DNA from: Kastovskya adunca ATA6-11-RM4
GTDB taxonomy: Bacteria; Cyanobacteriota; Cyanobacteriia; Cyanobacteriales; Coleofasciculaceae
Assembly: GCA_019359445.1 (NCBI GenBank)
Contig: JAHHHJ010000022.1
Location: forward strand, 1 to 64,000
Length of the DNA: 64,000 nucleotides
Direction of reading: 5' to 3'
The notes under the pieces were generated by a model, which was given only the letters and a program-made list of their open reading frames with translations, was not told the origin of the DNA and made no database searches. A program made the translations under genes and the position numbers. This document shows positions 7,801 through 56,722 of this stretch, piece by piece. Within the stretch, counting starts at the first letter, position 1, and every line of letters starts with the position of its first letter.

Positions 7801-8217
7801 ATGAACGCGGCTGAACAAGCAAGAGGGTTAGAAGTCACAACTAAGATTGCGGCGGTTGTAAATTTGTTTAAGGCTGAGTTTCCTGATGCAAAAGCAGACT
7901 TGAAGCCCTGGAAAAACGACCCGGATACGCGGGAATTAATCGATCCTGATTCCATTGATATTGGCTTTCATTTCCCTGGCTGGAGTCGGAAGTTTCAAAG
8001 CCGCAGTATTTTGGTGCAGATTCGCTTTTACAAAGACCCTTTGAATGGTTCCCACGCTTGTATTGGTGTGGAGGCGGCGGGATTTGACCATCGGGGCAAA
8101 GTGTGGAGATTCTCGACAGTGGAAAATTGGCAGATTTTGGGGCAATCGCAACCCGCCCCGGAAGTACAGGAGAAGCTGAAACACTTTTGCCGCCAGGTTT
8201 TTGAGTTATTTAATTAG
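7801..8217 (+). CDS. Conserved small protein of unknown function
   Basis: A 138-residue soluble protein preceded by a good GAGCGGAGG ribosome site. It has no signal peptide or membrane segment. Notable blocks are NLFKAEFPDAKADLKPW, DPDSIDIGFHFPGWSRKF and LVQIRFYKDPLNGSHACIGV, suggesting a mixed alpha/beta domain. I do not recognise the family. It converges with the DCC gene on the other strand, whose stop codon is only 16 bp away. Confidence 0.6.
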   Translation: MNAAEQARGLEVTTKIAAVVNLFKAEFPDAKADLKPWKNDPDTRELIDPDSIDIGFHFPGWSRKFQSRSILVQIRFYKDPLNGSHACIGVEAAGFDHRGKVWRFSTVENWQILGQSQPAPEVQEKLKHFCRQVFELFN

Positions 8218-10542: not shown

Positions 10543-11465
10543 TAGATACGGAACTACAGTTGCAGGGATGAACTAAAGCGGCAGAAGTCTCACACCATAA
10601 TCTCAGACTTATAGTAAGTAGTTCTCTCTTTATATTGGTAATAAGTAAAATTAATCAAATATCAAGCTAACAAGCAATTTCGGAAATCATCAAAGTTTGT
10701 GAACCTATATCCTTAGCGATTAATTAACTGGATGAATGACTGATAAGATGGTTTTCTCCCTACCATCCAAATAGTCAAACATTATTTGACTAGAGTCTTG
10801 ATACAATGGTCTGGCATCAGTCAAGCAGGCTAGATAGCGTCATTTGCTTGATTGGGGTGTGCGAGCAGTTTGACAAACCTGTCTGAACTCCTCTTTGAGT
10901 TCATAGACAATTCCTAAGCAGCAGGAACGACTGAGGGCTTATCCCAACTTGAGCTGCGGCTTCTCGGTCAGCACATTACTATGGCATGAGTCTATCGTTT
11001 ACCTTGGTATTTTTCAATAGTGTTAATGTTCTTTAGGGGTATTAAAGAATGTTATATATGTTTTAGCACCGTTTGACAGGCATCAATGCCAACTGGGTTT
11101 AATAGTGACACCATTAAATAAATCTTCTCCTATAAGTTACTTATCAAAGTTGTCACGCATTGATGAGATGAAAGAAAAATCTGAAGCTCTCAAAAAGTTG
11201 CTGGTATCAGCAAAAATAAAAGCGTAGTTTTGAAAAAGTACAATCGCTTTACCTGTGTAAAATTTGACAAGCGGCAGTTATTTACTAATCTCACTCAGTT
11301 AACACCTGAGCATGAAAAGTTCTAAAAGATTTAAATTAAGCCCTGATTACATATGTTATTAAATGGAAATTTTTAATCGAAGCCTTATTCATGAAAAGGA
11401 TTTAGAGACTTTATCTTATCTGCGTCAAACTTAAACCTGATTAATATTATTTATAGGCAATTTCC
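10543..11465. other. Long non-coding region upstream of the Mrp operon
   Basis: About 920 bp without a recognised gene. It is AT-rich near the operon and contains a small hairpin GGCAT-CA-ATGCC near 11080. Two tiny frames (11168-11227, 19 residues, and 11363-11434, 23 residues) have no support beyond being open. The length before a long operon makes a regulatory leader or a decayed gene plausible. I compared it by eye with known riboswitch cores and found no convincing match. Confidence 0.4.
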
Positions 11466-11801
11466 ATGTTAGAAGCCTTCATATTCGCAACAATATTCTG
11501 CGGATTTTTCGGCATCATCCTGAAAAAGAACCTGGTTATGAAGATCATCTCAATGGATGTCATGAGCACAGGGGTTATCGCCTATTACGTGCTAGTTGCA
11601 TCGCGAGATGGCTTATTCACACCCATTATTTCAGACGGCGCAAATGTCGCTTACTCCGATCCGGTTCCCCAGGCGGTGATATTAACGGGGATTGTGATCG
11701 GCTTTTCGGTTCAGTGCGTAATGCTGGTCGGTGTCATGAAGCTGGCGCGGGATAATCCGACATTGGAAAGCAACGAGATCGAGAAGAGCAATACCCCATG
11801 A
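11466..11801 (+). CDS. mrpC: Mrp-type Na+/H+ antiporter subunit C (NuoK-like)
   Basis: A 111-residue membrane protein with three helices, like NuoK. Key segments are LEAFIFATIFCGFFGIILKKNLVMKIISMDVMSTG and PVPQAVILTGIVIGFSVQCV, the latter matching the DP-PQALVLTAIVI block of MrpC/MnhC. It opens the operon and its TGA overlaps the mrpD start (ATGA). In Mrp complexes, subunit C helps form the proton/sodium-translocating membrane arm. Confidence 0.85.
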   Translation: MLEAFIFATIFCGFFGIILKKNLVMKIISMDVMSTGVIAYYVLVASRDGLFTPIISDGANVAYSDPVPQAVILTGIVIGFSVQCVMLVGVMKLARDNPTLESNEIEKSNTP

Positions 11802-13231
11802 GTAGCATTACCATCGCATGGATCGCACTACCGTTTTTTTTGGGGTTCACCATTTATCTGCTCCCCAAACTTGACAGAATCATCGCATTGTGCATGGCTT
11901 TTGTTTCGACTGGATATGCGTTGCAGCTATTTGTCACTCAGTCGTCGCTAACACTGCAATTATTAGATAATTTCGGCGTCACATTAATCGTCGATCAGTT
12001 AAGCGGCTACTTTATATTGACCAATGCGCTAGTAACAACCGCAGTCATCCTCTACTGTTGGAACACCGATAAGACAGCTTTCTTTTATACACAAGCCATC
12101 ATTCTGCATGGCAGCGTCAATGCCGCGTTCGTCTGTGCGGACTTTATCAGTTTATACGTGGCATTAGAGGTAATCAGTATTGCCGCATTTCTGTTGATTG
12201 CCTATCCCCGGACTAATCGCTCGATTTGGGTTGCCTTGCGCTATCTATTTATCAGTAACACGGCAATGCTGTTTTATCTGGTGGGTGCCGTCCTAGCCTA
12301 TCAGGCTAATCATTCTTTTAGTTTTGCAAGTTTGCGCGGGGCACCACCGGAGGCACTTGCCCTGATCTTTCTGGGACTCTTGGTTAAGGGGGGAATCTTT
12401 GTATCGGGATTGTGGTTGCCGTTAACCCACTCCGAATCAGAGACACCAGTATCAGCCTTGCTGTCGGGAGTTGTAGTCAAAGCTGGAGTCTATCCGCTAG
12501 TGCGTTGTGCGCTGATAGTGGAGGAGATTGATCCGCTCATCCGGCTGTTTGGAGTGGGAACGGCACTGCTGGGCGTATTTTATGCCGTCTTTGAAAAAGA
12601 TACCAAGCGGATGCTGGCGTTTCATACGGTTTCGCAGTTAGGCTTTGTCCTTGCCGCCCCAGTCGTAGGTGGCTTTTATGCACTGACGCACGGCTTGGTC
12701 AAATCGGCACTCTTCCTAATCGCGGGTGCTTTACCGAGCCGCAACTTCAAAGAGTTGCAACATAGACCAATCAATACAACGCTTTGGATTGCTCTGGTAA
12801 TAGCCAGCTTCTCGATCTCAGGCTTTCCTTTGTTGTCTGGCTTTGGGGCGAAGGTGTTGACGGCAAAGAATTTTCTGCCCTGGCAAGCGATCGCCATGAA
12901 CGTTGCGGCTTTGGGAACAGCAATCTCGTTTGCCAAATTCATATTCTTGCCGCATAAAGCAGACGGCGAAGAGGTAGTAAAGCCCGGTTTTTGGTCAGCG
13001 GCGATCCTGCTGCTCGGTGGTCTGTTTGTAGCAAATATTGCCTATTACGAGGCTTATACCCTTGCGAATATCGTAAAACCACTCGCAACCATCGGTCTTG
13101 GTTGGTTGGCGTATCTTTTAATTTTTAAACGATCCGTACTCAAGCTGCCCCGTGTTGTGGAGCAATTTGAGCATCTGATCGGTGGAATGAGTCTAATGTT
13201 GCTCCTACTCTTCTGGATGGTGTTGGCATGA
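11798..13231 (+). CDS. mrpD: Mrp-type Na+/H+ antiporter subunit D (NuoN/L-like)
   Basis: A 477-residue polytopic protein of the proton-pumping NADH dehydrogenase subunit family. Features include the conserved acidic residue in LYVALEVISIAAF, the Lys in LLVKGGIFVSGLWLPLTHSESETPVSALLSGVVVKAGVYPLVR, and FEKDTKRMLAFHTVSQLGFV. The start overlaps the mrpC stop. The TGA stop at 13229-13231 sits inside ATGAT, which marks the left flank of the inserted TnpB element. Before insertion, the stop would have overlapped the mrpE start in the same ATGA style. Confidence 0.9.
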   Translation: MSSITIAWIALPFFLGFTIYLLPKLDRIIALCMAFVSTGYALQLFVTQSSLTLQLLDNFGVTLIVDQLSGYFILTNALVTTAVILYCWNTDKTAFFYTQAIILHGSVNAAFVCADFISLYVALEVISIAAFLLIAYPRTNRSIWVALRYLFISNTAMLFYLVGAVLAYQANHSFSFASLRGAPPEALALIFLGLLVKGGIFVSGLWLPLTHSESETPVSALLSGVVVKAGVYPLVRCALIVEEIDPLIRLFGVGTALLGVFYAVFEKDTKRMLAFHTVSQLGFVLAAPVVGGFYALTHGLVKSALFLIAGALPSRNFKELQHRPINTTLWIALVIASFSISGFPLLSGFGAKVLTAKNFLPWQAIAMNVAALGTAISFAKFIFLPHKADGEEVVKPGFWSAAILLLGGLFVANIAYYEAYTLANIVKPLATIGLGWLAYLLIFKRSVLKLPRVVEQFEHLIGGMSLMLLLLFWMVLA

Positions 13232-13265
13232 TAAGTAATTTCCAAAAACTTTGAGTTTCTTGGCT

Positions 13266-13349
13266 ATGCTTTCAGCAATGGTAGAGCAAAGACGGCACAA
13301 AAACAAAACCCAAGCGACTATTAAAGCCTTATTAGAGGAAATAGAGTAA
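13266..13349 (+). CDS. Possible 27-residue leader frame before tnpB
   Basis: This frame starts ATG CTT TCA GCA ATG and ends in ...LLEEIE with TAA overlapping the tnpB ATG (TAATG). The sequence is charged and helix-like (VEQRRHKNKTQATIK). It may be a coupling leader or the tail of a lost gene. The only support is its position and the overlapping stop/start. Confidence 0.3.
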   Translation: MLSAMVEQRRHKNKTQATIKALLEEIE

Positions 13350-14452
13350 TGGCATCGAAGCGAAACAAGAATCTGATGAAGCGCACGGCAAGAGTTTACC
13401 TGAATGACCTGAATGCAGGTAAATCCGAGATTGTGCGTCAATTCTTGTTTCAATGTCACGATGTCATGCAGTATTTTATTGACCTGTTTTGGCAGCGAAA
13501 AGACTTTTCCGGGAAGCTGGCTGACTTGCCTACCGTCCACAGGGCAAGACAGAGGTTTGGCATCACAACCCGCTTGGGACAAGCCCTAGCCAAACAAGCG
13601 AGTGAGTGCGTTCGTTCTCAACACAAAAAGTACAGCAAGCGTAAGCCTCAATTAAGATGGCACACTGTCACACTGTTTTACCATTTCGTTACTATTAAAC
13701 CTTTCAAAGGAGATGGCTTTGATTGGTGCGTAAAACTGATTGGCTCTGGTGCGCCAAAACTAATTATTCCTGTCAAGTCCACAAAACTTATCAATCAACG
13801 ATTGGCTTCAGGCTGGCAGATATCTAAAACTATCCGCATGGGCTTGAGGAAGGGATGCCTGTGGATTGATTTTATTTTTGAGAAACAACGACCTCCCTTG
13901 AGAACATTTGGTAGGGTAGTTGGCATGGATTCCAACTACAAAAGCGGTGTCGTGTTTAGCAACTGCCAAGTAGTTGGAGAAGGTATTTATCAACGAATTC
14001 AAGGCTTCAAGAAGCGGCAAAAACACACCCGTACTGAAATTAAATCGATGCTGGGTTATGCACTGAAATCCGTTGATTGGTCTTCGATAAAAGTCCTTAG
14101 TATTGAGGACTTGAAGAAGGTTAAACACGGAAAACGGGAGACGTTCTCTCGCGTGTTTAACAGGCGGTTGTCTCATTGGCTTTATCGCACTTTGGTGCAG
14201 TTGTTGGAACGGAAGTGTGAGGAGGAGGGAATTCAGCTTGTGGTCAAAGATCCCTTTAAGACCTCACAGTTTTGCTCTCGCTGCAACAGATGGGACAGAC
14301 GAAACCGAAAAGGCGACAGGTTTAAGTGCGTTCATTGTGGCTACCTCACCCATGCTGACCACAATGCGGCTCACAACCTAGAGCTTTTAGGTGTGGCGGG
14401 AGTTTATGGTCTCCGTTCTTACTTAAGTTCATTTCGTCAAAGTGTTGGATAA
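13349..14452 (+). CDS. tnpB: TnpB-type RNA-guided nuclease / OrfB transposase accessory protein
   Basis: A 367-residue protein. The RuvC-like triad appears intact: D194 in VVGMDSN, E253 in VLSIEDLKK and D337 in THADHNAAHN. A four-Cys zinc ribbon lies between the last two (C309, C312, C327, C330). TnpB proteins of this family are RNA-guided DNA nucleases that promote retention of IS200/IS605 elements. The stop codon is only two bases before the right ATGAT, so any guide-RNA scaffold would have to overlap the coding 3' end, and the guide would be read from the start of mrpE. Confidence 0.85.
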   Translation: MASKRNKNLMKRTARVYLNDLNAGKSEIVRQFLFQCHDVMQYFIDLFWQRKDFSGKLADLPTVHRARQRFGITTRLGQALAKQASECVRSQHKKYSKRKPQLRWHTVTLFYHFVTIKPFKGDGFDWCVKLIGSGAPKLIIPVKSTKLINQRLASGWQISKTIRMGLRKGCLWIDFIFEKQRPPLRTFGRVVGMDSNYKSGVVFSNCQVVGEGIYQRIQGFKKRQKHTRTEIKSMLGYALKSVDWSSIKVLSIEDLKKVKHGKRETFSRVFNRRLSHWLYRTLVQLLERKCEEEGIQLVVKDPFKTSQFCSRCNRWDRRNRKGDRFKCVHCGYLTHADHNAAHNLELLGVAGVYGLRSYLSSFRQSVG

Positions 14453-14454
14453 CC

Positions 14455-14844
14455 ATGATTGGACATCTGAATCTGATATTGCGACTGGCTATCTGGTTTT
14501 TGCTCACCGCCAATCTGAGTGTGGCAAATATCATCATCGGCGTCAGTGTCGCACTCCTATTACCGGGACGCCCCAAAACCCCGGAAGCCTTAAAGGATTG
14601 GCTGCGCGTGCTGTGGGAAACCCTCGTGGCGATTCCCCAAGCGTATATGGAGGCATTTGAAATCATCTTCCGTCCCCATAATCACGAAGATGTGACGATG
14701 GAACGAGTCAAAGCCGGACGGACACCTGGACTCATCTTCCTGGATATATTCCTGATCACCTTTACGCCCAAGTCCATTGTCTTGAAGTACCACGAAGAGG
14801 GCTGGTACGAAGTCCACTGGGTACGACGGAGGAAAAAGGCATGA
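14455..14844 (+). CDS. mrpE: Mrp-type Na+/H+ antiporter subunit E
   Basis: A 129-residue protein with two or three N-terminal helices (HLNLILRLAIWFLLTANLSVANIIIGVSVALLL) and a cytoplasmic tail. The family blocks LLPGRPKTPEAL, FEIIFRP and PGLIFLDIFLITFTPKSIVL are present. Its start codon lies in the ATGAT at the right border of the inserted element, so the frame survived insertion intact. Expression from the original operon promoter would have to read through the 1.2-kb element. Its stop overlaps the mrpF start. Confidence 0.85.
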   Translation: MIGHLNLILRLAIWFLLTANLSVANIIIGVSVALLLPGRPKTPEALKDWLRVLWETLVAIPQAYMEAFEIIFRPHNHEDVTMERVKAGRTPGLIFLDIFLITFTPKSIVLKYHEEGWYEVHWVRRRKKA

Positions 14845-15092
14845 ACTTGGTACTGATTGCAATGATTCTGGCTCTGCTCATACCCATGTACGAGGCTTGG
14901 CAGGATGAGAATATCTGGCAGAAGATGTTGGCATTTTCAAGTATTGCGACCAAGACATCAATCATGATTCTAGTCGTATCCATCTTACGGGATGATTGGA
15001 TGCTCGGTGTTACAGGAGTAATCATCCTAAGTGTAGGTAATGCCGGATTAATGTTGTTGGCACAAGTCCTTAAACGCATCAATGAACTATGA
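14841..15092 (+). CDS. mrpF: Mrp-type Na+/H+ antiporter subunit F
   Basis: An 83-residue protein with three predicted membrane helices (LVLIAMILALLIPMYEAW, MLAFSSIATKTSIMILVVSIL, WMLGVTGVIILSVGNAGLMLLA). Size and helix pattern match MrpF/MnhF. Its start overlaps mrpE and its stop overlaps mrpG, indicating translational coupling within one transcript. Confidence 0.8.
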   Translation: MNLVLIAMILALLIPMYEAWQDENIWQKMLAFSSIATKTSIMILVVSILRDDWMLGVTGVIILSVGNAGLMLLAQVLKRINEL

Positions 15093-15367
15093 TCAACGCG
15101 CTTAGTTATACCTTCATAGGTATAGGAATTTTCTTCTGGTTTTGGGGAACCTTTCCCCTAGTCGGTCACCGCTCGGTATTATTCAAGCTACATACTCTTT
15201 CGGTTGCAGATACCCTAGGGAGCATGCTCATCATCGTCGGACTGCTCCTGAAGAGACCGGGCGAATGGCCGCTGCTTGTCCTGGGCATTATCACCTTAGC
15301 AATCTGGAATACAGTGCTGGGGTATGTATTAGCATACTCTTCCAGCACGGGAGGGAGCGATGAATGA
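15089..15367 (+). CDS. mrpG: Mrp-type Na+/H+ antiporter subunit G
   Basis: A 92-residue, three-helix protein. The blocks GIGIFFWFWGTFPLV, VLFKLHTLSVADTLGSMLIIVGLLL and LAIWNTVLGYVLA fit MrpG/MnhG, including the conserved K-LH-LSVADT-G motif. It overlaps mrpF by four bases and the next gene by eight. Confidence 0.85.
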   Translation: MINALSYTFIGIGIFFWFWGTFPLVGHRSVLFKLHTLSVADTLGSMLIIVGLLLKRPGEWPLLVLGIITLAIWNTVLGYVLAYSSSTGGSDE

Positions 15368-16022
15368 TAGCTATATCTATGTCATAACTGCCCTGCTGCC
15401 GTTGTCCGCGTTGATGTTGGTACTTCAGACTAATCCTTACCATGCCTTAGTAATCCAGGGAATACTGGGAGCGGTGGCAGCATTGGTATTTGCGGTTTTG
15501 GGGGCGGCGGATGTTGCTTTGACGCAAGCCTTGATGGGCACTCTGCTGGCGATTACGCTTTATGCGATCGCGGTGCGTTCATCCCTGGTGATGCGTCTTG
15601 GTGTACTCGAAGACGAGCCGATTGTGCAAAGCGCAGTGCCAAAGGCAATCGAGACAGATGACGAGTCTCTACCAGACGGCAAAGCCGTTAGCGTAGCGAC
15701 TCCGCAGGAGTGTGACCATTTTAAGCAACTGATGGATGACATGCGTTCAATTTTTCACAAACACTATATGCGTGTTGAGGTAGTCCCGTTCACGAATACG
15801 CAGGCTTTGCACCGAGCGTTGATCGACAAAGAAGTCCATGCAACTTGTGCCAGATCGGAACACGATGCTCAAAACCAGGCGCTGCCTGAAGCCGAAAAGC
15901 AACCCTATCACACGGCGACTAGAGTTCAACGCCTCTATGAGATCATGCAAGCCGAACTTTCGTCACCAGCGACAAGCCTAACCTATGTAAATGCATCAGA
16001 TTCAGAGGAGAAACATCAATGA
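15360..16022 (+). CDS. mrpA: Short MrpA-like subunit (DUF4040 domain) with soluble tail
   Basis: A 220-residue protein. Residues 1-80 hold three membrane helices and the DUF4040/MbhD-like block VFAVLGAADVALTQALMGTLLAITLYAIAVR-type sequence, which corresponds to the C-terminal part of large MrpA proteins. The remaining 130 residues are hydrophilic, with a tail ending SSPATSLTYVNASDSEEKHQ. In cyanobacterial Mrp operons this short subunit replaces full-length MrpA. The stretch around 15677-15712 (DGKAVSVATPQEC) looks like a cyanobacterial TTAGCGTAGCG repeat absorbed in frame. The 3' end is duplicated as a relic near 18.5 kb. Confidence 0.75.
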   Translation: MNDSYIYVITALLPLSALMLVLQTNPYHALVIQGILGAVAALVFAVLGAADVALTQALMGTLLAITLYAIAVRSSLVMRLGVLEDEPIVQSAVPKAIETDDESLPDGKAVSVATPQECDHFKQLMDDMRSIFHKHYMRVEVVPFTNTQALHRALIDKEVHATCARSEHDAQNQALPEAEKQPYHTATRVQRLYEIMQAELSSPATSLTYVNASDSEEKHQ

Positions 16023-16678
16023 AATGGGTTTACATTGCAGCGGGGATAGCGCTGTTTGTCAAATTCCTGATCATGCCCAATCCAACACCGGACTTATCGC
16101 TCTCGATCGTCCAAACGCTTGTACAAGAGAGTGGAGTACCTAATGCCGTTACGGCTGTCATTCTCAGGAATCGGCTGTATGACACGATCTTTGAAGTGGT
16201 GGTATTTACGATCGCGGTCATGGGTGCAAAGTTTCTGCTGGCTGATGAAAGACCTTTCTGCACGGTTTATCGGTTCACCGATCAACCATCCATTGTTATG
16301 GCGCGTCTAGGAGCAACAATTGCCGCGATGGTGGGTATCGAACTGGCGATTCGGGGGCATCTGAGTCCAGGAGGTGGTTTTGCGGCTGGAGTTGCGGGTG
16401 GAACTGCGATCGGTTTGGTGGCGATTACCTCATCATCGGAGTGGATGCAGGCGATCTACAAACGCTGGAACGCCGCTATATGGGAGAAGGTTTCGGTTCT
16501 GATTTTCATTGTCCTGTCGGTTATAACTCTAGCCGGATTAGAATTACCGCACGGAGAGTTGGGCGCACTTTTCAGCGGCGGAGTCATTCCCCTGCTCAAC
16601 ATCCTAGTCGCCGTCAAAGTCGCGTTGGGTTCTTGGGCGGCTATTTTGGTGTTTATTCATTATCGGGGATTGTTGTGA
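16019..16678 (+). CDS. mrpB: Mrp-type Na+/H+ antiporter subunit B (MnhB domain)
   Basis: A 219-residue membrane protein. An N-terminal helix pair precedes the MnhB domain, with the diagnostic GIELAIRGHLSPGGGFAAGV block near residues 101-120 and a glycine-rich LSGGVIPLLNILVAVKVALG-like end. Start overlaps the previous stop (ATGA). It closes the operon; a MITE lies 86 bp downstream of the stop. Confidence 0.85.
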   Translation: MKWVYIAAGIALFVKFLIMPNPTPDLSLSIVQTLVQESGVPNAVTAVILRNRLYDTIFEVVVFTIAVMGAKFLLADERPFCTVYRFTDQPSIVMARLGATIAAMVGIELAIRGHLSPGGGFAAGVAGGTAIGLVAITSSSEWMQAIYKRWNAAIWEKVSVLIFIVLSVITLAGLELPHGELGALFSGGVIPLLNILVAVKVALGSWAAILVFIHYRGLL

Positions 16679-16764
16679 GAGATCGGAGGCTGGAGAATTA
16701 CAGCAATTGTCCCTTGTGCGACATCCTCTGCTACGGGAACACATCAGTGCGGATCTACAGATGC

Positions 16765-16855
16765 AGGACTTACGCGGCAACTCTACTAGTAGGTTGCTTA
16801 TGCTAACCCCCTACTTTATAGATAGTGTCTAACGGAGAATTTTGCGTAAGTCCTG
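16765..16855. mobile_element. 91-bp MITE with terminal inverted repeats and 6-bp target duplication
   Basis: Terminal repeats AGGACTTACGC and GCGTAAGTCCT are perfect complements, and flanking C/G extend them to 12 bp. AGATGC occurs directly on both sides (16759-16764 and 16856-16861), which looks like a target-site duplication. The interior holds a further near-palindrome, GCAAC...GTTGC (16777-16797). There is no coding capacity. AGGACTTACGC-type ends recur in cyanobacterial genomes as non-autonomous elements. Confidence 0.8.
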
Positions 16856-16882
16856 AGATGCAGATGTACCCTCTGTAGTGCC

Positions 16883-18139
16883 TTATCTCATCGCAAAGCG
16901 GGAAGCGGGGAGGTTGAAGAGAGCTTGAAAGTTAGATTGCCGTTCTGTAATGGGTTCGGGGCCTTCGTCCCAAAGGCTTTCATAGTAGAAGAACGATACA
17001 CCCAATTCGCGATCGCGTGCCGAGTTTACCTTAGCCTGAATCAGTGACATCGCAACTGGCTTATTTCTTAAGCCTGTTAGCACACCAACTCCGGTTGGGA
17101 TCTTTTGTTGCACCTCTTGAATTTCAGGTCGGGTAATCTGGTTGAGAAAACTTTGCAAATCAGGACGATAAACCTGCACAATTAGCTCATCCACAATATC
17201 CTGCCGCACCCAAGTCAGCCAGTCTTGTAGGTAAGTATTGTAAGCCGTGACATAGGGATTAGGGGAAACGGAGAATATTGCATTGGGCTTTCTCTGTTTT
17301 ACAGCTTGGTTGAGTTGGGTCACGAACGCTGTAATTTTATCAGCCCGCCAGCGCACCCATTCGGGATCTTGGGGATTGGCAGGTGCATCTTTCTTGGTTT
17401 CCTGTTTGTACAAAGCCAGCGTGTAGCTATCATAGCCAAATACATTGGGTAAGCTGGTGTGATCGTCAAACTGAATGCCATCAACATCATATTGGGTAAC
17501 GGCTTCTAGCACGAGATCGGTGATGAACTTCTGCACCTCTGGCAAGAAGGGATTGAGCCACACAACCTCACCTGCTGCACTAATCCAAGTTTGGTTACCA
17601 TCCCGCTGTTGCGTCAGCCACTCCGGATGATTTAATGCCAGTTCCGATGTAGGAGGAGCCATGAAGCCGAACTCAAACCAGGGAATTACGAGCAACCCTT
17701 GGCGATGGGATTGAGTAATCAGATCAGCGAGGATATCTTGCCCCTGTAAGCCTTGGCGAATAAATGGTTGAATCTCTGCCCGTTGAGCTACAGCACTCGG
17801 ATACAGTACGTAGCCAGAATTCCACACCACTGGATAGATCGTATTGAGGTTCAACCGTGCTAATTGACTCACAGCCTCTTGCATTTTGGTGCGATCGCTG
17901 AGAATGTCATGGTCATTTTCAGTCATCCAAACCCCACGAATTTCTTGCATGGGCCGCTGTGCAATTGGCTCTGGCATTGCGCTTTGTGCGATTGCCTGTG
18001 GCACCGCCCAAGGGGCGATCGCAGACATAGGATAGTCCGCCAACAAAATTGTAAGGAATAATCCCATGAAGAGTAAGGAAAAATACTTAAGCGATCGCCA
18101 CCAATGTCTAGGGATACAACGCAATTTCATAGGCTTCAA
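16883..18139 (-). CDS. Exported glycoside-hydrolase-10-like protein (DUF187/GHL10 family)
   Basis: A 418-residue protein. A membrane-spanning signal segment (FSLLFMGLFLTILLADYPM, residues 20-38) precedes an Ala/Pro/Gln-rich linker. The TIM-barrel domain starts at EIRGVWMTENDHDILSD. Further GHL10 blocks are LARLNLNTIYPVVWNSGYV, HRQGLLVIPWFEFGFM, GEVVWLNPFLPEVQKFI, YDVDGIQFDDHTSLP and FSVSPNPYV. Relatives are thought to act on cell-wall or extracellular glycans; the substrate is not established. It is convergent with the Mrp operon. Confidence 0.85.
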   Translation of the reverse strand: MKPMKLRCIPRHWWRSLKYFSLLFMGLFLTILLADYPMSAIAPWAVPQAIAQSAMPEPIAQRPMQEIRGVWMTENDHDILSDRTKMQEAVSQLARLNLNTIYPVVWNSGYVLYPSAVAQRAEIQPFIRQGLQGQDILADLITQSHRQGLLVIPWFEFGFMAPPTSELALNHPEWLTQQRDGNQTWISAAGEVVWLNPFLPEVQKFITDLVLEAVTQYDVDGIQFDDHTSLPNVFGYDSYTLALYKQETKKDAPANPQDPEWVRWRADKITAFVTQLNQAVKQRKPNAIFSVSPNPYVTAYNTYLQDWLTWVRQDIVDELIVQVYRPDLQSFLNQITRPEIQEVQQKIPTGVGVLTGLRNKPVAMSLIQAKVNSARDRELGVSFFYYESLWDEGPEPITERQSNFQALFNLPASRFAMR

Positions 18140-18439
18140 AGATAAGTCAGTTATTCATACACACGTTGCCGTTGGTACTACCCAAGGGGCAATTAGGTAT
18201 GTCCACGATGGAATGAATTATTCATAGACTGGTATTTATTATTTACTAAAGAGTTAGTTAACTACAGGATTCCTTCCATGAGTAATATCTATGATTGTGA
18301 TAGAAAAAAATAAGCATTATGAGATTGGATCTGGCAAGATATCCAATCGTCATCTGCTTGCAGTAGTACTTATCTCCAAAGCGCTGTCACTTAATGCAAG
18401 GAGTCGAAGAAACAGAGCGATCGCCTGGGCATGAATACT

Positions 18440-18537
18440 AAGTTGTTGCGCGTATAGGACATCATAATCAAGCAACTTTCGTCACCAGCGATAAGCTTAT
18501 GTTATGTAAATGCATCAGACTCAGAGGAAGAATCATC
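18440..18537 (+). pseudogene. Relic of the mrpA 3' end
   Basis: Bases 18473-18535 match 15957-16018, the end of the mrpA-like gene, closely: both share AACTTTCGTCACCAGCGA, then ATGTAAATGCATCAGA and TCAGAGGA. Weaker similarity extends upstream (AGTT...CGC...TAT...ATCAT) to about 18440. The copy is not followed by mrpB and carries no long frame. It is a decayed duplicate lying 2.5 kb from the intact operon. Confidence 0.75.
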
Positions 18538-18603
18538 GCCAGTAAAGCTGAGCTGTTGTTTGCCTAATCGCTAGTCCCACGCGATCGCGTTCAGGCTAAG
18601 CGG

Positions 18604-19314
18604 CTACTTAAAGAGTGAAATAATCCAAGCAGCAGTTATGCTCATCAACACGATAATCTCTAGAACCTTGAGGGGAAAAGACAGTTTCAACCACTCTTTA
18701 GCTAAAGTCGGTCGCAAACCATACCACCATTGAAGAATATTTTCTCGCCACAAAGCAGGACTATCTTTAGGGCGAAATTGGTAACTTAATATTGACAAGA
18801 GAAGGGGAACTCCTCCTACCTTGGCACTCATCAAGAGATGCAAGGCGATGCAGCCAACCATCACCACCCATGAAATGAGGTGAGCATAATACCAACTATG
18901 GTCAAGCTCTCCCTTAGGTAGCCACTTTTCATCCATCATCTTGCCGGAGAAAACGGCAAAAGTCAGTGCCAAGATAGCCAGGGTGTTAATGACTCGATGC
19001 AGCGTGTACCACCATATCGGTTTACCCAACTGTCCAAGTTTTCCCACAGAATCCTGCTGGATAAGTCTTTTTTGCCCACGATGGAAAGCGTATAGAGCAA
19101 ATAGAGGGAATACAAGTAAGGCATATAGCCCAAAGGTGCCATGAATTCCTTCTATTTCCTTCAACTTAGGCAAGGGAATTCTTCCCCATCGTCCGTCGTA
19201 GACATCGTATGTCCAATAGGCGGTCAAAATCGCGGCAATTACGAAAAGACTAGTAAAGCCATGCAGAATACGAAGAAGAAGAGGTTGGTATGGCCCAGAG
19301 AGTTTTGCAGGCAT
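18604..19314 (-). CDS. Cytochrome b561-type membrane protein
   Basis: A 236-residue membrane protein with four or five hydrophobic segments. His residues sit at plausible haem positions: LLLRILHGFTSLF (N-terminal helix), IEGIHGTFGLYALLVFP, WWYTLHRVINTLAIL and HLISWVVMVGCIALHLLMSAK. This fits the bacterial cytochrome b561/DUF4405 type, which passes electrons across or within the membrane. No partner dehydrogenase is adjacent, so the electron donor is unknown. Confidence 0.7.
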   Translation of the reverse strand: MPAKLSGPYQPLLLRILHGFTSLFVIAAILTAYWTYDVYDGRWGRIPLPKLKEIEGIHGTFGLYALLVFPLFALYAFHRGQKRLIQQDSVGKLGQLGKPIWWYTLHRVINTLAILALTFAVFSGKMMDEKWLPKGELDHSWYYAHLISWVVMVGCIALHLLMSAKVGGVPLLLSILSYQFRPKDSPALWRENILQWWYGLRPTLAKEWLKLSFPLKVLEIIVLMSITAAWIISLFK

Positions 19315-19369
19315 ATTCAGAAAGTTACCGAAATCTTCCCTACGTCTTTCATTTAATTTAATTGTCTCA

Positions 19370-19460
19370 CTCTGCGATCGCCCTACGTAAAAAATCCATA
19401 ACCTATCGATTTAGGTAGGAGTTGACGGATGCTTGACAGAGTTTGAGACAACGTGATCGC
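19370..19460 (+). repeat. 91-bp direct repeat, left copy flanking the reverse transcriptase
   Basis: Aligns without gaps to 21479-21569, with about 75 of 91 positions identical by my count. Shared blocks include CTCTGCGATC, AAAATCCAT, GACCTATC/AACCTATC and CAGAGTTT. The right part of this copy runs into a LuxR-type regulator relic. Confidence 0.75.
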
Positions 19461-19591
19461 GATATTGGTGATCGTCTCATTATTACTGAGAGTACTGTGA
19501 AGTTCCATATAAAAATGTTCTCAGAAAGCTCAAAGCCCAAACTCGTTATCAGGCACTTCATCAAGGGAATATAAGTGATTGGATTCAGTAG
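19433..19591 (+). pseudogene. Decayed LuxR/NarL-type HTH fragment
   Basis: With two frame changes this reads LTEFE, then QRDRDIGDRLIITESTVKFH followed by IK and NVLRKLKAQTRYQALHQG. This closely resembles the C-terminal HTH of NarL-type response regulators (LTERE...STVKFHIKNVL.KL...TRYQA). The segment between LTE-E and RDRDIGDRL is shortened, and one base is missing in the AAAAAT run. It is a gene relic lying partly inside the left 91-bp repeat. Confidence 0.65.
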
Positions 19592-19715
19592 TTTAGCGGT
19601 AAGGGTCAGTGGCGGCAAGTAACCTAGAACTCAGCACCGAGATTTCCCTTCTATTCGCTGCACCACAGTGTTAGCCTGCGGAACCACTCTAACTTTTAGG
19701 GTGTAAACTCAGAGT

Positions 19716-21266
19716 TTATACTTCACCAGAAGGACCACTAGTGTCTCCAGGAGGAATGATAAGTGGTACAGATTGATCGTAAAAAGCAATACCATTTTGC
19801 TTTAGTTGAGAAAACCAAGAATCTTTGGAGACATGATCATACCCAGTAGGCAGATATCCTTGAAGATTTGCCTCATATGAGAGTAGCCACTGATTACCAT
19901 ACAGTTCATCTTCGGTTAGAAACTGTTCCCATTTCTTTGTACTTAACCTGGCTGGAATTCTTCCTCTTTTCTGTGCATCCAGAGCCACAATAGCAACAAT
20001 AGAATCTTCCATATCAGAAATTACCTGGGCTGCTTCTTTATGTATAGCTAACTTAAAGACGATTATTGACCATATTGCCCAAGCGACTTCGCTACTATGT
20101 CCAAGTGGGGCGTGCTGGAGGATTTGCAAATTCAGATTTTTCTCAAGAGAGTCTAGATCAATTGGATAATTCTTAACTTGTTTGCTTTGAAATATTGATA
20201 AAGCATCGCGTAAAGTGCTAGCTTCTATTGTCATTGATTGCAAGAGTAGGCTTTCGAGCAATGACCAATTATCGTGATGAAGTTCGTCGAAGTTTCCAAT
20301 TCTTGCAATGGCATATTTAAGCACTGGCTCTTGAGGAATCTCTCTAGCAATTTGAAAAGCTCGATCAAAATAACGAATCAGATCTTGCATTTGAGCAAGC
20401 TTTTTATCGCTAAACTTATAATCAGATATTTCTAAGACCCAGATAGCATCTAAAGAGCATGGCAACTCAGTAATTCTAGTTTTGTTAGGATTAAGTGTCA
20501 GCTCAAAGTATGATAAGACTTGTTGAAGATAACTTAAAGCTGTTTCGGCTTCTGAGCGTGTTAAAAATATAAGTTCGTAATCATCGCTATAACGAAAACC
20601 TCTATAGGGATATGCACACAAGCTTGCAAGTCGTTTTTCCAATTCTATATCCGACGCACAAAGTATTAATTCAGCGATAACTAGCGAAGTATCAGGACCA
20701 ATGGGGATTCCCATTGTTTGTCCATCCTGGCTATTGCGAACCAATTTATCAAGCTGATTTCCAAATAGAGAGAAATTGCTTCTTTGGTTTTTGGCAATTT
20801 CCTTTCCGTGTACAGCCCAAGGAATGCTGTGTGTGTAGATAGACTGATAGAACTGTGAAATATCTGTTTGTAAAGCATATCGACCAATTGCTCTGTTCTT
20901 AGCTCTTTCTTTAGGTAAATCAGAGAAATCAAGTAGAGGAGAAATTGAACGATTGCGTTTTGGATGTGGTGTATGAATAGGTTGACTTTTTGATAAATGA
21001 GATTTTTGGGTTATCAATTTTATGTCAGCCCAGTGACTTTCTATTATTTTAGTGGTTTCTAAAAAGAAAACTGGATTTGGTATGCTCAGTTTTCTTCTTA
21101 AAGATCCATACTTAACATGGCTATGTGAATACAGTTTTGAAGTGGCTTTGGAAGCTGACTGTAAAGATGGATTAGTTACAGCAAAGTTGGCGAGAGAGTC
21201 GGTTTTGAATGGTGGAGGAAGTTCTTTAGGAAAGTACCCTCTACTAATTAAATCTCTTCTATGCAT
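19716..21266 (-). CDS. Solitary reverse transcriptase of the UG/Abi/DRT type
   Basis: A 516-residue protein. RT motifs are clear: motif A TDISQFYQSIYTHSIPWA with catalytic D135, motif B GQTMGIPIGPDTS (182-194), motif C YSDD (226-229) and motif D LTLNPNKT. The SIYTHSIPWA-HGK block and the N-terminal DLISRGYFPKELPPPF are typical of unknown-group and abortive-infection-like RTs, not group II intron or retron RTs. No maturase, zinc-finger or endonuclease domain is seen. Residues 300-516 are mostly helical and acidic. Related DRT enzymes defend against phage. The gene stands alone between two direct repeats. The exact subgroup cannot be assigned by eye. Confidence 0.85.
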   Translation of the reverse strand: MHRRDLISRGYFPKELPPPFKTDSLANFAVTNPSLQSASKATSKLYSHSHVKYGSLRRKLSIPNPVFFLETTKIIESHWADIKLITQKSHLSKSQPIHTPHPKRNRSISPLLDFSDLPKERAKNRAIGRYALQTDISQFYQSIYTHSIPWAVHGKEIAKNQRSNFSLFGNQLDKLVRNSQDGQTMGIPIGPDTSLVIAELILCASDIELEKRLASLCAYPYRGFRYSDDYELIFLTRSEAETALSYLQQVLSYFELTLNPNKTRITELPCSLDAIWVLEISDYKFSDKKLAQMQDLIRYFDRAFQIAREIPQEPVLKYAIARIGNFDELHHDNWSLLESLLLQSMTIEASTLRDALSIFQSKQVKNYPIDLDSLEKNLNLQILQHAPLGHSSEVAWAIWSIIVFKLAIHKEAAQVISDMEDSIVAIVALDAQKRGRIPARLSTKKWEQFLTEDELYGNQWLLSYEANLQGYLPTGYDHVSKDSWFSQLKQNGIAFYDQSVPLIIPPGDTSGPSGEV

Positions 21267-21987
21267 TTATCTACTTCAAGTTAACTCACAAGACATAAAT
21301 CAAAAATTCATCAATCTTCAATTATAGCTTTAGCATTTTATGGTTTGAATATATTTCACCGATAATCTAGAAGATCTGTCTCACCAACAGCTCTCAAGGT
21401 CACATAACGCTCAACTCCGACAGATAAGCTTCAGCCTCCCATCTCCACCGAGAAGCCAAGCAGGTTCATAATGACTCTCTCTGCGATCACACTATTCCAA
21501 AAATCCATGACCTATCAATTTAGATAGTAGTTAATGGCTGCTTGGCAGAGTTTTAGACAACGCGATCGCATTCATTCAGCAACTGTAGGGCGATTTCTAG
21601 AACTTCCTCTGCGAAGTGATATTTCCTAGAGAAGTCTTTGATGATTAAAACACTGGTCATCCTGACTAGATGAACTTACTTGTGGTTCGCTTAACTCTGA
21701 GTGTTGTTCAGAATTACTGGAGGCGACGATTTCTGGTTCTACACTCTTAGTAAGAACACAGCTATTTAATTTCCAGATTGGAATGAAAAATAACAGGCAG
21801 TAGCGAATCAACATTAACCTCCGGTCAAGTCAAGTTTATCAACCGTAATGTTGAAGCTGCTGCACTGTCAAAGGCGATCGCTGGTATGGCACAGAAGGAG
21901 GAGCGATCGCTTCCTAACTGATGAGGGTTTTTACGCTATGCTCAAGGTGATGCCATTATCAACATCATTCTAAGCATCAAGATAGCT
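21267..21987. other. Non-coding region between reverse transcriptase and RHH/MazF genes
   Basis: About 720 bp. The part next to the RT start (21267-21478) could hold its promoter and any upstream structured RNA, as some DRT systems do. The right 91-bp repeat lies at 21479-21569. A 62-codon minus-strand frame (21626-21814) begins with a hydrophobic stretch, but nothing else supports it as a gene. Confidence 0.4.
21479..21569 (+). repeat. 91-bp direct repeat, right copy flanking the reverse transcriptase
   Basis: Same orientation and length as 19370-19460. It ends in GCGATCGC where the left copy has GTGATCGC. The right copy lacks the STVKFH part of the regulator relic that follows the left copy. 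The two copies bracket 2.0 kb containing only the reverse transcriptase and non-coding DNA. Confidence 0.75.
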
Positions 21988-22263
21988 ATGAAAAATCAGA
22001 CTGTCCGCACGACAATAACTCTACCTGCAAAACTGTTAGCTGCGGCTGACAAAGCAGTGAGCCAAGGAAAAGCTAAGAGTCGCAATGAGTTTGTAGCGCA
22101 GGCACTTCTACATGAGCTGGAAGCACTCAAACGGACAGAAATTGATGCAGCACTAGCTGAAATGGCACAAGACCCAGAGTATCAAGCTCAAGTGCTACAG
22201 ATGGAGGCTGAGTTTGCCGTAGCCAGTTGGGAAGCCTTGCAATTGGGAGAATCCCCAGCATGA
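21988..22263 (+). CDS. Ribbon-helix-helix antitoxin
   Basis: A 91-residue protein. The N-terminus VRTTITLPAKLLAAADKAVS followed by KSRNEFVAQALLHELEAL is a ribbon-helix-helix DNA-binding domain of the CopG/MazE-like type. The C-terminal half (ALAEMAQDPEYQAQVLQM) is acidic and probably wraps the toxin. Its stop codon overlaps the toxin start as ATGA, the classic coupled type II arrangement. It likely represses its own promoter. Confidence 0.85.
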   Translation: MKNQTVRTTITLPAKLLAAADKAVSQGKAKSRNEFVAQALLHELEALKRTEIDAALAEMAQDPEYQAQVLQMEAEFAVASWEALQLGESPA

Positions 22264-22610
22264 AGCGGGGAGAAGTTTATGATGCTCGACTTGAACCTGT
22301 CGAGGGTTCAGAACAAGGGGGAACCCGTCCAGTCATTATCGCTAGTCGAGATGCAATCAATGTCTATAGTCCTGTAGTTTTGGCTATTCCCTGCACTACT
22401 TATCAAACTGGTAAACGAGTTTATCCAACTCAGGCGCTAATTCAAGCTCCGGATGGTGGATTAACCAACAACTCTATCGCTATGGCAGATCAGGTACGGG
22501 TATTATCCAAAACTCGCTTATTGCGTTTACGAGGAATGCTAAGTGAAGAAGTAATGGATTTATTGAATCAAGCTTTGTTGATTGCTTTGGATTTACCAGG
22601 TCAAGTTTGA
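22260..22610 (+). CDS. mazF: MazF/PemK-family endoribonuclease toxin
   Basis: A 116-residue protein starting at the ATG overlapping the antitoxin stop. The MazF fold is marked by MKRGEVYDARLEPVEGSEQGGTRPVII-type N-terminal strands, then VVLAIPCTT, NNSIAMADQVRVLSKTRL and the C-terminal helix DLLNQALLIALDL. MazF toxins cleave mRNA at short sequences when the labile antitoxin is degraded. The cleavage site cannot be predicted here. Confidence 0.85.
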   Translation: MKRGEVYDARLEPVEGSEQGGTRPVIIASRDAINVYSPVVLAIPCTTYQTGKRVYPTQALIQAPDGGLTNNSIAMADQVRVLSKTRLLRLRGMLSEEVMDLLNQALLIALDLPGQV

Positions 22611-26107: not shown

Positions 26108-26257
26108 GTGGCTAACAACGTGACATTAAACCTTCTCAGGCTAACTTACCAGAAAGTACTGAAGAGTTGCCCCTTTTACCAAAATCATTTTCACAAGACG
26201 CCACACTGTCAGGGCATGGTGAAAAATGGTCAAGCTTTATGAAGGATGAAGGCAGAG

Positions 26258-26416
26258 TGCTGAGTCCTGAGTGCTGAGTAGGGGAGAAAGTGTGAAGTGT
26301 GAAGGATGAAGGATGAAGTATGAAGTATGAAGTATGAAGGGTAAGAGGTTCTCCCCTACTCCTCCGCACCCCTGCTCCCCTGCTCCTCCGCACCCCTGCT
26401 CCCCTGCTCCCTGCTC
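26258..26416. repeat. Composite short tandem repeats (heptamer/octamer arrays)
   Basis: Three repeat types in fixed order: GTGCTGAG/TCCTGAG units, TAGGGGAGAAAG, GATGAAG/TATGAAG heptamers, and CCCCTGCTC/CCGCACC units. The same order recurs at 32755-32890. These are short tandemly repeated sequences of the kind described from filamentous cyanobacteria. They sit between citrate synthase and sixA and are non-coding. Confidence 0.75.
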
Positions 26417-32754: not shown

Positions 32755-32890
32755 GTCCTGAGTCCTGAGTCCTGAGTCCTGAGTAGGGGAGAAAGTATGA
32801 AGTGTGAAGTATGAAGGATGAATTCGGTTATTGGTTCTTTTCCTCTCCCCTGCACCCCTGCACCCCTGCACCCCCGCTCCTCCTCTCCCC
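32755..32890. repeat. Composite short tandem repeats, second locus
   Basis: TCCTGAG heptamers are followed by TAGGGGAGAAAG, TATGAAG/TGTGAAG heptamers, a short unique gap, and CCCCTGCA octamers. Order and sequence match the array at 26258-26416, so this is the same composite repeat at a second site. It begins just after the AI-2E transporter stop. Confidence 0.75.
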
Positions 32891-50941: not shown

Positions 50942-51026
50942 GGCAGGATAACAAATCGTTGCAGCGGCGGAATGGAGATAATCTGCATAAATCCAAGATT
51001 ATTCGCCGCCGCTCTCATTGTTGCCT
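50942..51026 (+). other. attC-like site after the pentapeptide gene
   Basis: Possible R'' GGATAAC (50946-50952) and R' GTTGCCT (51020-51026). Between them lies a strong hairpin: AGCGGCGG (50963-50970) pairs with CCGCCGCT (51006-51013), and ATAATC (50978-50983) pairs with GATTAT (50997-51002), leaving GGAG unpaired. Extrahelical bases and a 13-nt loop are attC-like. It starts 14 bp after the pentapeptide stop. Box spacing is not fully canonical, so confidence is moderate. Confidence 0.4.
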
Positions 51027-51040
51027 CTGGTTCTACATAC

Positions 51041-51342
<302 letters not shown>

Positions 51343-51588
51343 TCAAGGATCAGTCTTTGACCATCGCACCCGTCATCACCCCTAACTTTCAGCCCTTCCG
51401 ACCTTGCGGCTCATGACGCTGATGTACTCGCCGTTTCGGTCTGTTGCAATGGGTTCTATCTACAGGGCGCGATCGCACCCTAACAAGTCGATGAAGCGGG
51501 CTGACGAGAGGTTTTTGTGGGGTTGCCGAAGTTGTTTTCTGCCGCTTATCTTGGTCGTTCGAGTGCTTCAGTTAGTTGGTTGTAAGCA

Positions 51589-54398: not shown

Positions 54399-54857
54399 GT
54401 GAGCTTAGTGCTGTCCTGCTTTGACATAGCAAACTATTTTATTTGGATAGCGAATGAAACTGGCTCCTTCATTAGTAACTTGAAGCTTCAAAAGCTTGTT
54501 TACTACGCTCAGGCTTGGCATATTGCACTCCACAACAATCCTCTCTTTGAAGAAGATTTTGAGGCATGGGTGCATGGACCAGTAATTCCATCTCTGTATC
54601 AGAAATATAAATCTTTTGGATGGCAGCCAATCTCTGAAGATGTTGCTCCTGAGCTTCCTAACGACGTTTTTCAATTTCTTGATGAAGTTGCGGAAGAATA
54701 TTTTGCTTGCGATGCCTATGAGCTAGAGCAGATGACTCATGCTGAAGATCCTTGGAACTGCGCTAGAGGAGATCTAGCCCCGGACGAACCCTCTAATGAA
54801 GTTATCAAGAAAAAGTGGATGAAGGAGTTTTACGGAGCACGTGTCGAAGAAGATTAA
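54399..54857 (+). CDS. Panacea-domain (SocA-like, DUF4065) antitoxin
   Basis: A 152-residue protein with a GTG start. The Panacea fold is indicated by FISNLKLQKLVYYAQAWHIA, FEEDFEAWVHGPVIPSLYQK, DEVAEEYFACDAYELEQMTH and the basic end KWMKEFYG. Panacea-domain proteins neutralise many different toxins encoded next to them. The next gene begins 17 bp before the stop of this one, the usual toxin-antitoxin overlap. An attC-like site follows the pair. Confidence 0.85.
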   Translation: MSLVLSCFDIANYFIWIANETGSFISNLKLQKLVYYAQAWHIALHNNPLFEEDFEAWVHGPVIPSLYQKYKSFGWQPISEDVAPELPNDVFQFLDEVAEEYFACDAYELEQMTHAEDPWNCARGDLAPDEPSNEVIKKKWMKEFYGARVEED

Positions 54858-55272
54858 AAAGACTAAAGTCCCAAAGACTAGTACATCTGGGATTAAATCA
54901 ACAAAGCTGAAGCCACAAGGCATCAGCTTTTCGTTTAAGTACTATCAGGATGGTCATAATAAGTTCTCTTGTAATGAGAAGGCAGCTACATATTGGTTAA
55001 CCCTAATTGACCGTCTAAAGGCTCTGTCAGGTTTATCTAATCAAGAACTACTAGTGAACCGCAGTAGCACTCTTAGATGTCATCCAATTAGATGGGAGGA
55101 CACAAGTGAAAATGGCTTTGGATTGCCGAATGAGGAGCAGTTAGTAGACACCCCCTACCAGTTTTCTCTCTCTTCAAATGAGCATGGCAGAGTTCATGGA
55201 TTTCTTATTGATGAAGTCTTCTACATTGTTTGGTTAGATCCCAACCATTTGCTTTATTCCGCAAAAGGTTAG
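54841..55272 (+). CDS. Probable toxin partner of the Panacea antitoxin
   Basis: A 143-residue protein with a GTG start overlapping the antitoxin gene by 17 bp. The N-terminal 30 residues are Lys/Ser/Thr-rich and probably disordered (KKIKKTKVPKTSTSG). The compact domain begins GISFSFKYYQDGHNKFSC and includes YWLTLIDRLKAL, LRCHPIRWEDTSENGFG, LVDTPYQFSLSSNEHGRVHG and FLIDEVFYIVWLDPNHLLY. The conserved R-HPI-W-D and HGF-ID--FY-VWLDP elements suggest an active site. No known fold is recognised. Its partner's identity makes a toxin role likely. Confidence 0.65.
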   Translation: MSKKIKKTKVPKTSTSGIKSTKLKPQGISFSFKYYQDGHNKFSCNEKAATYWLTLIDRLKALSGLSNQELLVNRSSTLRCHPIRWEDTSENGFGLPNEEQLVDTPYQFSLSSNEHGRVHGFLIDEVFYIVWLDPNHLLYSAKG

Positions 55273-55283
55273 TAGAGAGCGCC

Positions 55284-55371
55284 GCATAACAACCCCAATG
55301 CACACCGACCGTCGAGAGGTTATTGGTTGGAGTTTGAGGTTACTGGCGGCGGGTGATTGGGAACGTTGTGC
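55284..55371 (+). other. attC-like recombination site 1
   Basis: R'' GCATAAC (55284-55290) and R' GTTGTGC (55365-55371) bracket an 88-bp imperfect palindrome. Next to R'', ACCCCAATGCACACCG pairs with CGGGTGATTGGG near R', with the AAC/GTT spacer unpaired and extra G bulges, as attC folding requires. It begins 11 bp after the toxin stop codon. The recombination point would be G55365^T. Confidence 0.6.
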
Positions 55372-56000
55372 CGTCGCGCCGCAGCTTGGCAGAAGGTGTT
55401 AGTAAACTATAGGTATGAAACCAGTTGTGTATCTGATGTGTGGCCTGCCGGGGTCTGGCAAAACGACACTCTCAGGAAAACTCGAATATGAAAATAATGC
55501 TGTGCGATTTTCTATAGATGAATGGATGCTGAATTTTTACGGTGAAACGATGTCACGCGAAGAGTTTGACGAGCGTTTTGAGCGGTGCGAACATATGATA
55601 TGGAAAACTGCTAACCGTCTGACTCAGTTAGGGGGTTCTGTCATCTTAGATTTCGGCTTTTGGAAGAGGGAAAGAAGAAGGAATTATAAAACTCGCATCA
55701 CAGAAACAGGAGCACATCCGGTCTTGTATTACATTCAAGTTTCTGACGAGGTTCTACAGCGTCGGCTTGAGGCGAGGAATGAACTTTTGCCTGATGATGA
55801 TGATGTATTTCATATCACCGAAGAGATGCTCTATTCTTTCATAGCTCAGTTCGAGCCTCCAACCGAAGAAGAGGGGTTCGAGATTGTAGAAGTGAAGTCC
55901 TGATGCACTAACAACGGCACAACAAGGCGCTGCACCCGACCACCTACAGCCCTGCGCTCGTGCCTCGCTTTGGGCTTCCAGCAGCGGGTGAATCGGAACG
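55366..56000 (+). mobile_element. 635-bp integron-type gene cassette
   Basis: This unit runs from the cut in site 1 (G55365^T) to the cut in site 2 (G56000^T). Its 5' end TTGTGCCGTCG is the reverse complement, at 10 of 11 positions, of CAACGGCACAA (55912-55922), next to its R'' box. That is the relation expected when a circular cassette carries one intact attC. It contains a single gene (55415-55903) and a 49-nt leader. Confidence 0.65.
55415..55903 (+). CDS. P-loop ATP-binding kinase-like protein in a gene cassette
   Basis: A 162-residue protein of the AAA_33 / zeta-toxin-like kinase type. Walker A GLPGSGKTT lies at residues 10-18 (YLMCGLPGSGKTTLSGKL). Then come FSIDEWMLNFYG and the Walker-B-like GSVILDFGFWKRERR. 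The lid is in LQRRLEARNELLPDDDDVF. Relatives phosphorylate small molecules or nucleotides; a toxin or resistance role is possible in cassettes, but no partner gene is encoded. It fills the 635-bp unit with a 49-nt leader and ends 14 bp before the R'' box of site 2. Confidence 0.8.
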   Translation: MKPVVYLMCGLPGSGKTTLSGKLEYENNAVRFSIDEWMLNFYGETMSREEFDERFERCEHMIWKTANRLTQLGGSVILDFGFWKRERRRNYKTRITETGAHPVLYYIQVSDEVLQRRLEARNELLPDDDDVFHITEEMLYSFIAQFEPPTEEEGFEIVEVKS

Positions 56001-56157: not shown

Positions 56158-56200
56158 CAAGAACCCAATTGCAGCTTATAGCGCTACGCGCTATACCCGC

Positions 56201-56722
<522 letters not shown>

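Follow-up and report, generated by a model that had tools for sequence, protein, structure and literature searches.

The reverse transcriptase (RT) gene described here is likely to be a DRT6-type integron cassette that lies inside an old local duplication of the region upstream of a cytochrome b561 gene. It is located in the window, by which we mean the whole stretch of 64,000 nucleotides analysed (contig JAHHHJ010000022.1 of Kastovskya adunca ATA6-11-RM4, positions 1 to 64,000), between two direct copies, R1 and R2, of a short sequence (Table 1). An earlier note on this DNA remarked that no known RT-carrying element has such ends. The repeat, however, does not mark the ends of such an element: they had been misplaced, as the copies are part of the host locus, and the mobility signature of the RT is an attC site located behind it.

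Table 1. Features of the RT locus and other attC sites in the window
Feature	Position	Strand	Remarks
Possible trace of LuxR 3' end	18577..18589	+	Adjoins cytochrome b561; by-eye alignment, weak
Cytochrome b561-type protein, 236 aa	18604..19314	-	Adjoins R1
Repeat copy 1 (R1)	19363..19460	.	Lies natively upstream of cytochrome b561
Degraded LuxR/NarL-type HTH fragment	19455..19593	+	Frameshifted; GerE E 6e-8
Integron attC	19590..19677	-	38 nt 3' of RT stop, RT polarity; 45.5 bits
Proposed RT cassette extent	19597..21408	-	Sequence reading; 5' end G|TTATGT (~21408) candidate only
Reverse transcriptase, DRT6-type class-1 UG RT, 516 aa, intact	19716..21266	-	PADLOC, fold, motifs
Repeat copy 2 (R2)	21472..21569	.	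206 nt upstream of RT start
attC behind 750-aa pentapeptide-repeat gene	50945..51027	+	26.5 bits; outside RT slot
attC	51477..51564	+	54.8 bits; outside RT slot
attC 10 nt behind SocA/Panacea-type gene pair (54399-55272)	55283..55372	+	38 bits; outside RT slot

Judged by its sequence and a predicted model, the RT belongs to the class-1 defence RTs, is intact and is of the DRT6 type. Firstly, the PADLOC Drt6 model matches residues 2-499 with 584 bits (E 5.5e-176), Drt4 models scoring nearly equally (575 bits); the RT misses the cut-off of the NCBIfam Drt4 equivalog (268 of 450 bits). Secondly, the catalytic motifs TDIS and YSDD are present, and D135 and D228-D229 are invariant in nine homologues. 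Thirdly, the predicted model (pLDDT 83.8), in which, as in the DRT6 hexamer, an RT domain is followed by a helical C-terminal one, aligns over its full length with the cryo-EM structure of that hexamer (9wy8) at a TM score of 0.91 and 33% identity. The scores are 0.80 for DRT4 and 0.64-0.70 for AbiK, within an AbiK/AbiP2 range of 0.5-0.7; DRT4 (UG15), AbiK and AbiP2 have the RT domain and the helical C-terminal domain in common with our protein, but resemble it less in sequence and fold than DRT6 does. The RT is like DRT6 (UG12) in its full-length fold, PADLOC match, solitary gene and intact catalytic motifs; unlike the known ones it is cyanobacterial and has an attC site, and it is known from sequence and model. 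A retron, a group II intron and a diversity-generating retroelement (DGR) were rejected, as the window contains no Rfam match and the group II and retron profiles scored far below cut-off. A phage origin was likewise rejected, because no close relative was found in phage records or IMG/VR (best identity ~30-40%). The gene is rare in its order, with any match present in 39 of 388 sampled genomes and a full-length one in nine, this genome included, and its GC content (37.6%) is low compared with that of the window (46.7%), which counts in favour of a cassette. DNA homology to the locus of the closest RT (66% identical; G244, L113) is limited to the RT open reading frame (ORF). Directly to the right of R2, at 21988-22610, lies an RHH antitoxin and PemK/MazF-type toxin pair.

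The repeat itself had been read essentially correctly: compared with the 91 bp, gapless and similarly oriented, at about 82% identity, noticed earlier, self-comparison of the window gave an ungapped direct repeat of 98 bp with 82% identity and a start-to-start distance of 2109. What had been overlooked is that R1 belongs to the neighbouring gene, cytochrome b561, as its upstream region, and has the same orientation towards it as R2 has towards the RT. Also, the repeats do enclose the RT gene, but not only non-coding DNA besides, because a degraded LuxR helix-turn-helix (HTH) fragment and the attC site are located between them. Searches for both repeat cores with at most three mismatches found only these two copies in the window (0 expected, from 100 shuffles), and a pattern search with the left core found the same two only in the whole 5.09-Mb genome; this kind of search was chosen because a genome-wide repeat search at the DNA level overlooks the 82% copy, probably owing to its seed length. 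Two copies in the genome, and a single match in each of the related genomes G030, G057 and G079, rule out a dispersed repeat or MITE.

The sequence of R1 is kept upstream of cytochrome b561 in four related genomes. In G030, G057 and G079, all of family f12, one repeat copy is present at the orthologue's upstream position, followed by other DNA and no RT. Scanning a degenerate core pattern over 85,000 genomes yielded one further contig, from Trichocoleus sp. FACHB-40. In this strain, contig C80 carries cytochrome b561 and then the repeat, fused at an identical junction to the LuxR HTH fragment known from the window, after which it ends; contig C29 starts with the remaining LuxR fragment, followed by a 427-aa gene (minus strand) unrelated to the RT, a second repeat copy and the flank that we call Z. 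The ends of both contigs share matching insertion sequence (IS) inverted repeats (CCTCAGTTCGGG(A/T)TAAGC) and, by reading, the same 9 bp target (TATGAATAA); from this we infer that C80 and C29 join through a multi-copy IS that broke the assembly. An IS with CCTCAGTTCGGG inverted repeats thus appears to be inserted in the LuxR fragment of FACHB-40, splitting the assembly there (ends of L126 and L127).

These data bear directly on how the RT came to lie between the two copies. G030, which belongs to the genus of FACHB-40, has cytochrome b561, a single repeat copy and then Z, with no cargo. The two-copy layout with other cargo in FACHB-40, together with this cargo-free single copy, makes the duplication seem older than the RT, as far as sequence comparison can tell. 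In agreement with this, R2 of the window is closer to R2 of FACHB-40 (87% identity) than to R1 of the window (81%), a grouping that has a bootstrap of 57% on ~90 sites. Of the two origins offered earlier, insertion between old duplicates is therefore supported, and acquisition of the RT with duplication of its target is contradicted: a relative with both copies but no RT had been named as evidence against the latter, and FACHB-40 is such a relative. An empty site with one copy, proposed as a sign of gain by insertion, does exist in relatives, but the layout of G030 may equally well be original or a collapsed pair.

As to how the duplication arose, the homology between the copies extends to the final base of a HIP1 octamer, GCGATCGC, and no further; this octamer forms the exact right end of R2 (21562-21569), and the right end of R1 is the HIP1-like GTGATCGC, fused to the LuxR fragment. 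Beyond this point one copy runs into LuxR and the other into Z, its own flank. In G030 and FACHB-40 the LuxR tail is also present on the other side of cytochrome b561; the putative LuxR 3' trace of the window is cut at a HIP1 site (18581), where G030 and FACHB-40 have a longer tail. Moreover, the order repeat, gene, LuxR occurs twice in FACHB-40. These observations suggest, at the level of sequence, a tandem duplication joined at HIP1 in which the gene of one unit was replaced. No remnant of a second cytochrome b561 was found when the slot between R2 and the LuxR fragment was searched, so that duplication of the whole unit is only deduced. The breakpoint exactly at an octamer resembles the HIP1-associated illegitimate recombination discussed for cyanobacteria (PMC4390886), with the caveat that HIP1 is so frequent here, about 1 per 890 bp, that a single coincidence has a probability of about 1%.

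Alternatively, the second copy could be xenologous, having arrived together with the cargo on DNA of a related strain by homologous recombination on one side and illegitimate (HIP1) recombination on the other; the differences between the copies would then reflect strain divergence and not the age of a duplication. The composition of the window lends some weight to this. Most of the block 10976-19460 is 85-92% identical at the nucleotide level to f12 genomes, and the genes to its right, including citrate synthase, are 65-82% identical to them. Cytochrome b561 shows 90-93% amino acid identity to family f12 and at most 60% within its own family f1, unlike citrate synthase, which is equally close to both. 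The block thus looks imported from an f12-like donor, and its presence indicates that DNA of such donors has indeed been transferred. The window holds two further brackets of similar identity (15930/18449, 81%; 51040/56200, 84%). However, FACHB-40 has the same layout of R1 fused to LuxR and followed by R2, with other cargo, from which it follows that the two-copy arrangement existed without the RT. We therefore regard a xenologous second copy as rather unlikely.

Several other repeats and insertions were noticed in the window. The direct repeat at 15930-16017 and 18449-18537 (91 bp, 81%) repeats the end of an antiporter-operon gene, and a GHL10 glycosyl-hydrolase-like gene (16883-18139), absent at that place in G079, is inserted between its two copies. 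A TnpB-type (IS605-like) gene (13349-14452) lies in a segment, 13233-14453, that is an insertion relative to G079, where the flanks are contiguous. The 281-bp direct repeat at 51040-51320 and 56200-56460 (84%) apparently consists of catalase-peroxidase 3'-end fragments and encloses a stretch in which two attC sites accompany a SocA/Panacea-type gene pair. Finally, a 63-bp direct repeat (94%) is present at 26255-26317 and 32760-32822; the overlapping stretch ~26293-26346 matches several places in f12 and is therefore a dispersed sequence.

The case for a cassette, to which we now return, depends on the attC site behind the RT. Structures with R and L boxes and an extrahelical base were noticed behind the RTs of G300, G016 (AbiP2) and G318 (UG14), and also on a Kovacikia plasmid. 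A covariance model was built from four other sites, with those of G016 and G318 used and those of the window and G300 left out; the window site is the sole independent test among the RT sites, because G016 and G318 were training sites. The model found it on the minus strand only, with an E of 1.4e-9 when 655 kb are searched and of 1.4e-10 for the window. By sequence reading, the L stem with its extrahelical G is intact (GGT[G]CAG / CTGACC), as is the R'' box (GGCTAAC); the R' box (GCTAAAC), where the site meets the LuxR fragment, is degraded, so that the cassette is probably no longer mobile. Our claim from the sequence is thus that the RT probably derives from a cassette, and does not extend to a cassette that is still active. 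A site lies within 150 nt of three of 31 RT loci, for which a rough binomial gives 1e-7, with the training sites of G016 and G318 counted among the three. The G300 site is short and scores low (16.4 bits), that of FACHB-40, with 18.9 bits and an E of 0.0014 on its contig, is weak, and the model found none at the closest RT, in G244. In favour of a cassette, searches detected no attC at 29 cytochrome b561 loci. A second attC upstream of the RT was looked for and not found.

It is also conceivable that the attC-like site has no integron function, being a dispersed palindromic repeat or a terminator, and that the RT was gained by ordinary recombination. The 90 matches of the model across 12 genomes, 21 of them in this genome, mostly lie singly and scattered, a motif search found no intI or attI in the window or in the sampled stretches of this genome (a fraction of it), and a position 3' of genes would fit terminators. 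Yet the sites have the hallmarks of attC: R and L boxes, an extrahelical base, covariation and a strict placement 3' of genes on the same strand. Among 57 distinct sites, stem covariation amounted to 125 double-change cells against 48 in shuffles (0 of 500 reaching it), and was also above slid controls, in an alignment fitted to the model, which somewhat favours covariation. For 72% of 54 sites, a same-strand ORF ends at most 80 nt 5' of the site, compared with 9% for the reverse and 12% for random placement. The genes before them include Nudix, SnoaL-like, HNH and toxin-antitoxin-like proteins, family names that come partly from reading of the sequences alone. Moreover, five attC sites in one orientation form a 7.7-kb array with Nudix and SnoaL-like genes (L172:9010-16735; G000:C20:164-172 kb), near which a motif search found no integrase, and cyanobacterial attC sites have already been modelled (PMC8352920). 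Structure-only regular-expression scans gave no more matches than in shuffled DNA, and the attC claim therefore rests on the covariance model and the placement statistics; minimum-energy folding of the attC strand in the window gave a z-score that was not unusual. On balance, a site without integron function appears improbable, more so than a xenologous repeat. Nevertheless, a single 3' attC is no proof of insertion by an integrase, as a larger transfer could have brought the attC along.

The last alternative, that a ~2-kb element copied its ~98-bp target when the RT inserted, may draw on the one-copy empty sites and on a different DRT locus, in G289, which likewise lies between repeats copied from a neighbouring gene's 5' end, but is very hard to maintain, given that both copies flank an unrelated gene in FACHB-40, that the LuxR fragment separates R1 from the RT, and that only four of nine DRT loci (window included) have a flanking direct repeat, unrelated in sequence and length, and five have none. 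In G289 (L115), the repeats, at 8026-8168 and 10953-11086, are HIP1-bounded, permuted in order and placed around a DRT4-type RT and a neighbour gene; the gene whose 5' end they copy is the adjacent GNAT gene.

A DRT6 cassette in an old duplication would have come about as follows. In an ancestor, the 98-bp segment upstream of cytochrome b561 would have been duplicated, probably within a tandem of upstream region, cytochrome b561 and LuxR tail joined at HIP1 octamers. The gene position of one unit would be the one that now holds a foreign gene, which we see to be the DRT6 RT here and the 427-aa gene in FACHB-40. The RT would have arrived as an integron gene cassette consisting of its ORF and the attC present at the locus, presumably inserted by an integrase. 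Single-gene DRTs (DRT6/DRT4) need no template for DNA synthesis, and their product is made toxic by a DNA-binding protein of the phage (PMC13213688); by analogy, our RT may be a single-gene hexameric polymerase of template-free DNA that becomes toxic once a phage protein stabilises it. Speculatively, R2, which lies upstream of the RT in the same direction, may supply expression; it holds one weak promoter-like match, and the regional number of such matches is not above chance. Going further, the repeat pair might act as a small exchangeable cargo slot, in which defence cassettes enter beside the LuxR fragment, use the captured upstream sequence of b561 for their expression and are lost again when the repeats recombine, so that a single chimeric copy is left behind, as in G030; we consider this idea doubtful.

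Integron cassettes that carry phage defence have been reported (Darracq, Littner et al. 2025; Kieffer et al. 2025), and, as summarised in a review of that work (PMC12409362), they have in common with our locus an ORF followed by attC, a defence-type gene and a single small system. Compared with the cassettes as that review presents them, ours differs in that it stands alone, has a decayed attC, lies in a cyanobacterium and shows neither integrase nor attI. Cassette insertion at non-classical attG sites (Loot et al. 2024, as cited in PMC11023631) would, going by that citation, account for single cassettes outside an integron platform; the target here would be a putative one. We found no link between DRTs and integrons in the open literature.

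The components of this locus are known and their setting is new: it is an ordinary but informative case in which a known defence RT, on a cassette of known kind, lies in an old and unusual duplication by which the first reading was led astray. It also shows that what looks like a novel element end may turn out to be an old host duplication. Solitary defence RTs are sporadic, and their mode of spread is rarely visible. The RTs of the DRT6, AbiP2 and UG14 types, each with an attC directly behind it in a separate cyanobacterial genome, point to integron cassettes as one vehicle, and would extend the idea of the integron as a defence store to the cyanobacteria, a phylum in which this idea has been little studied.
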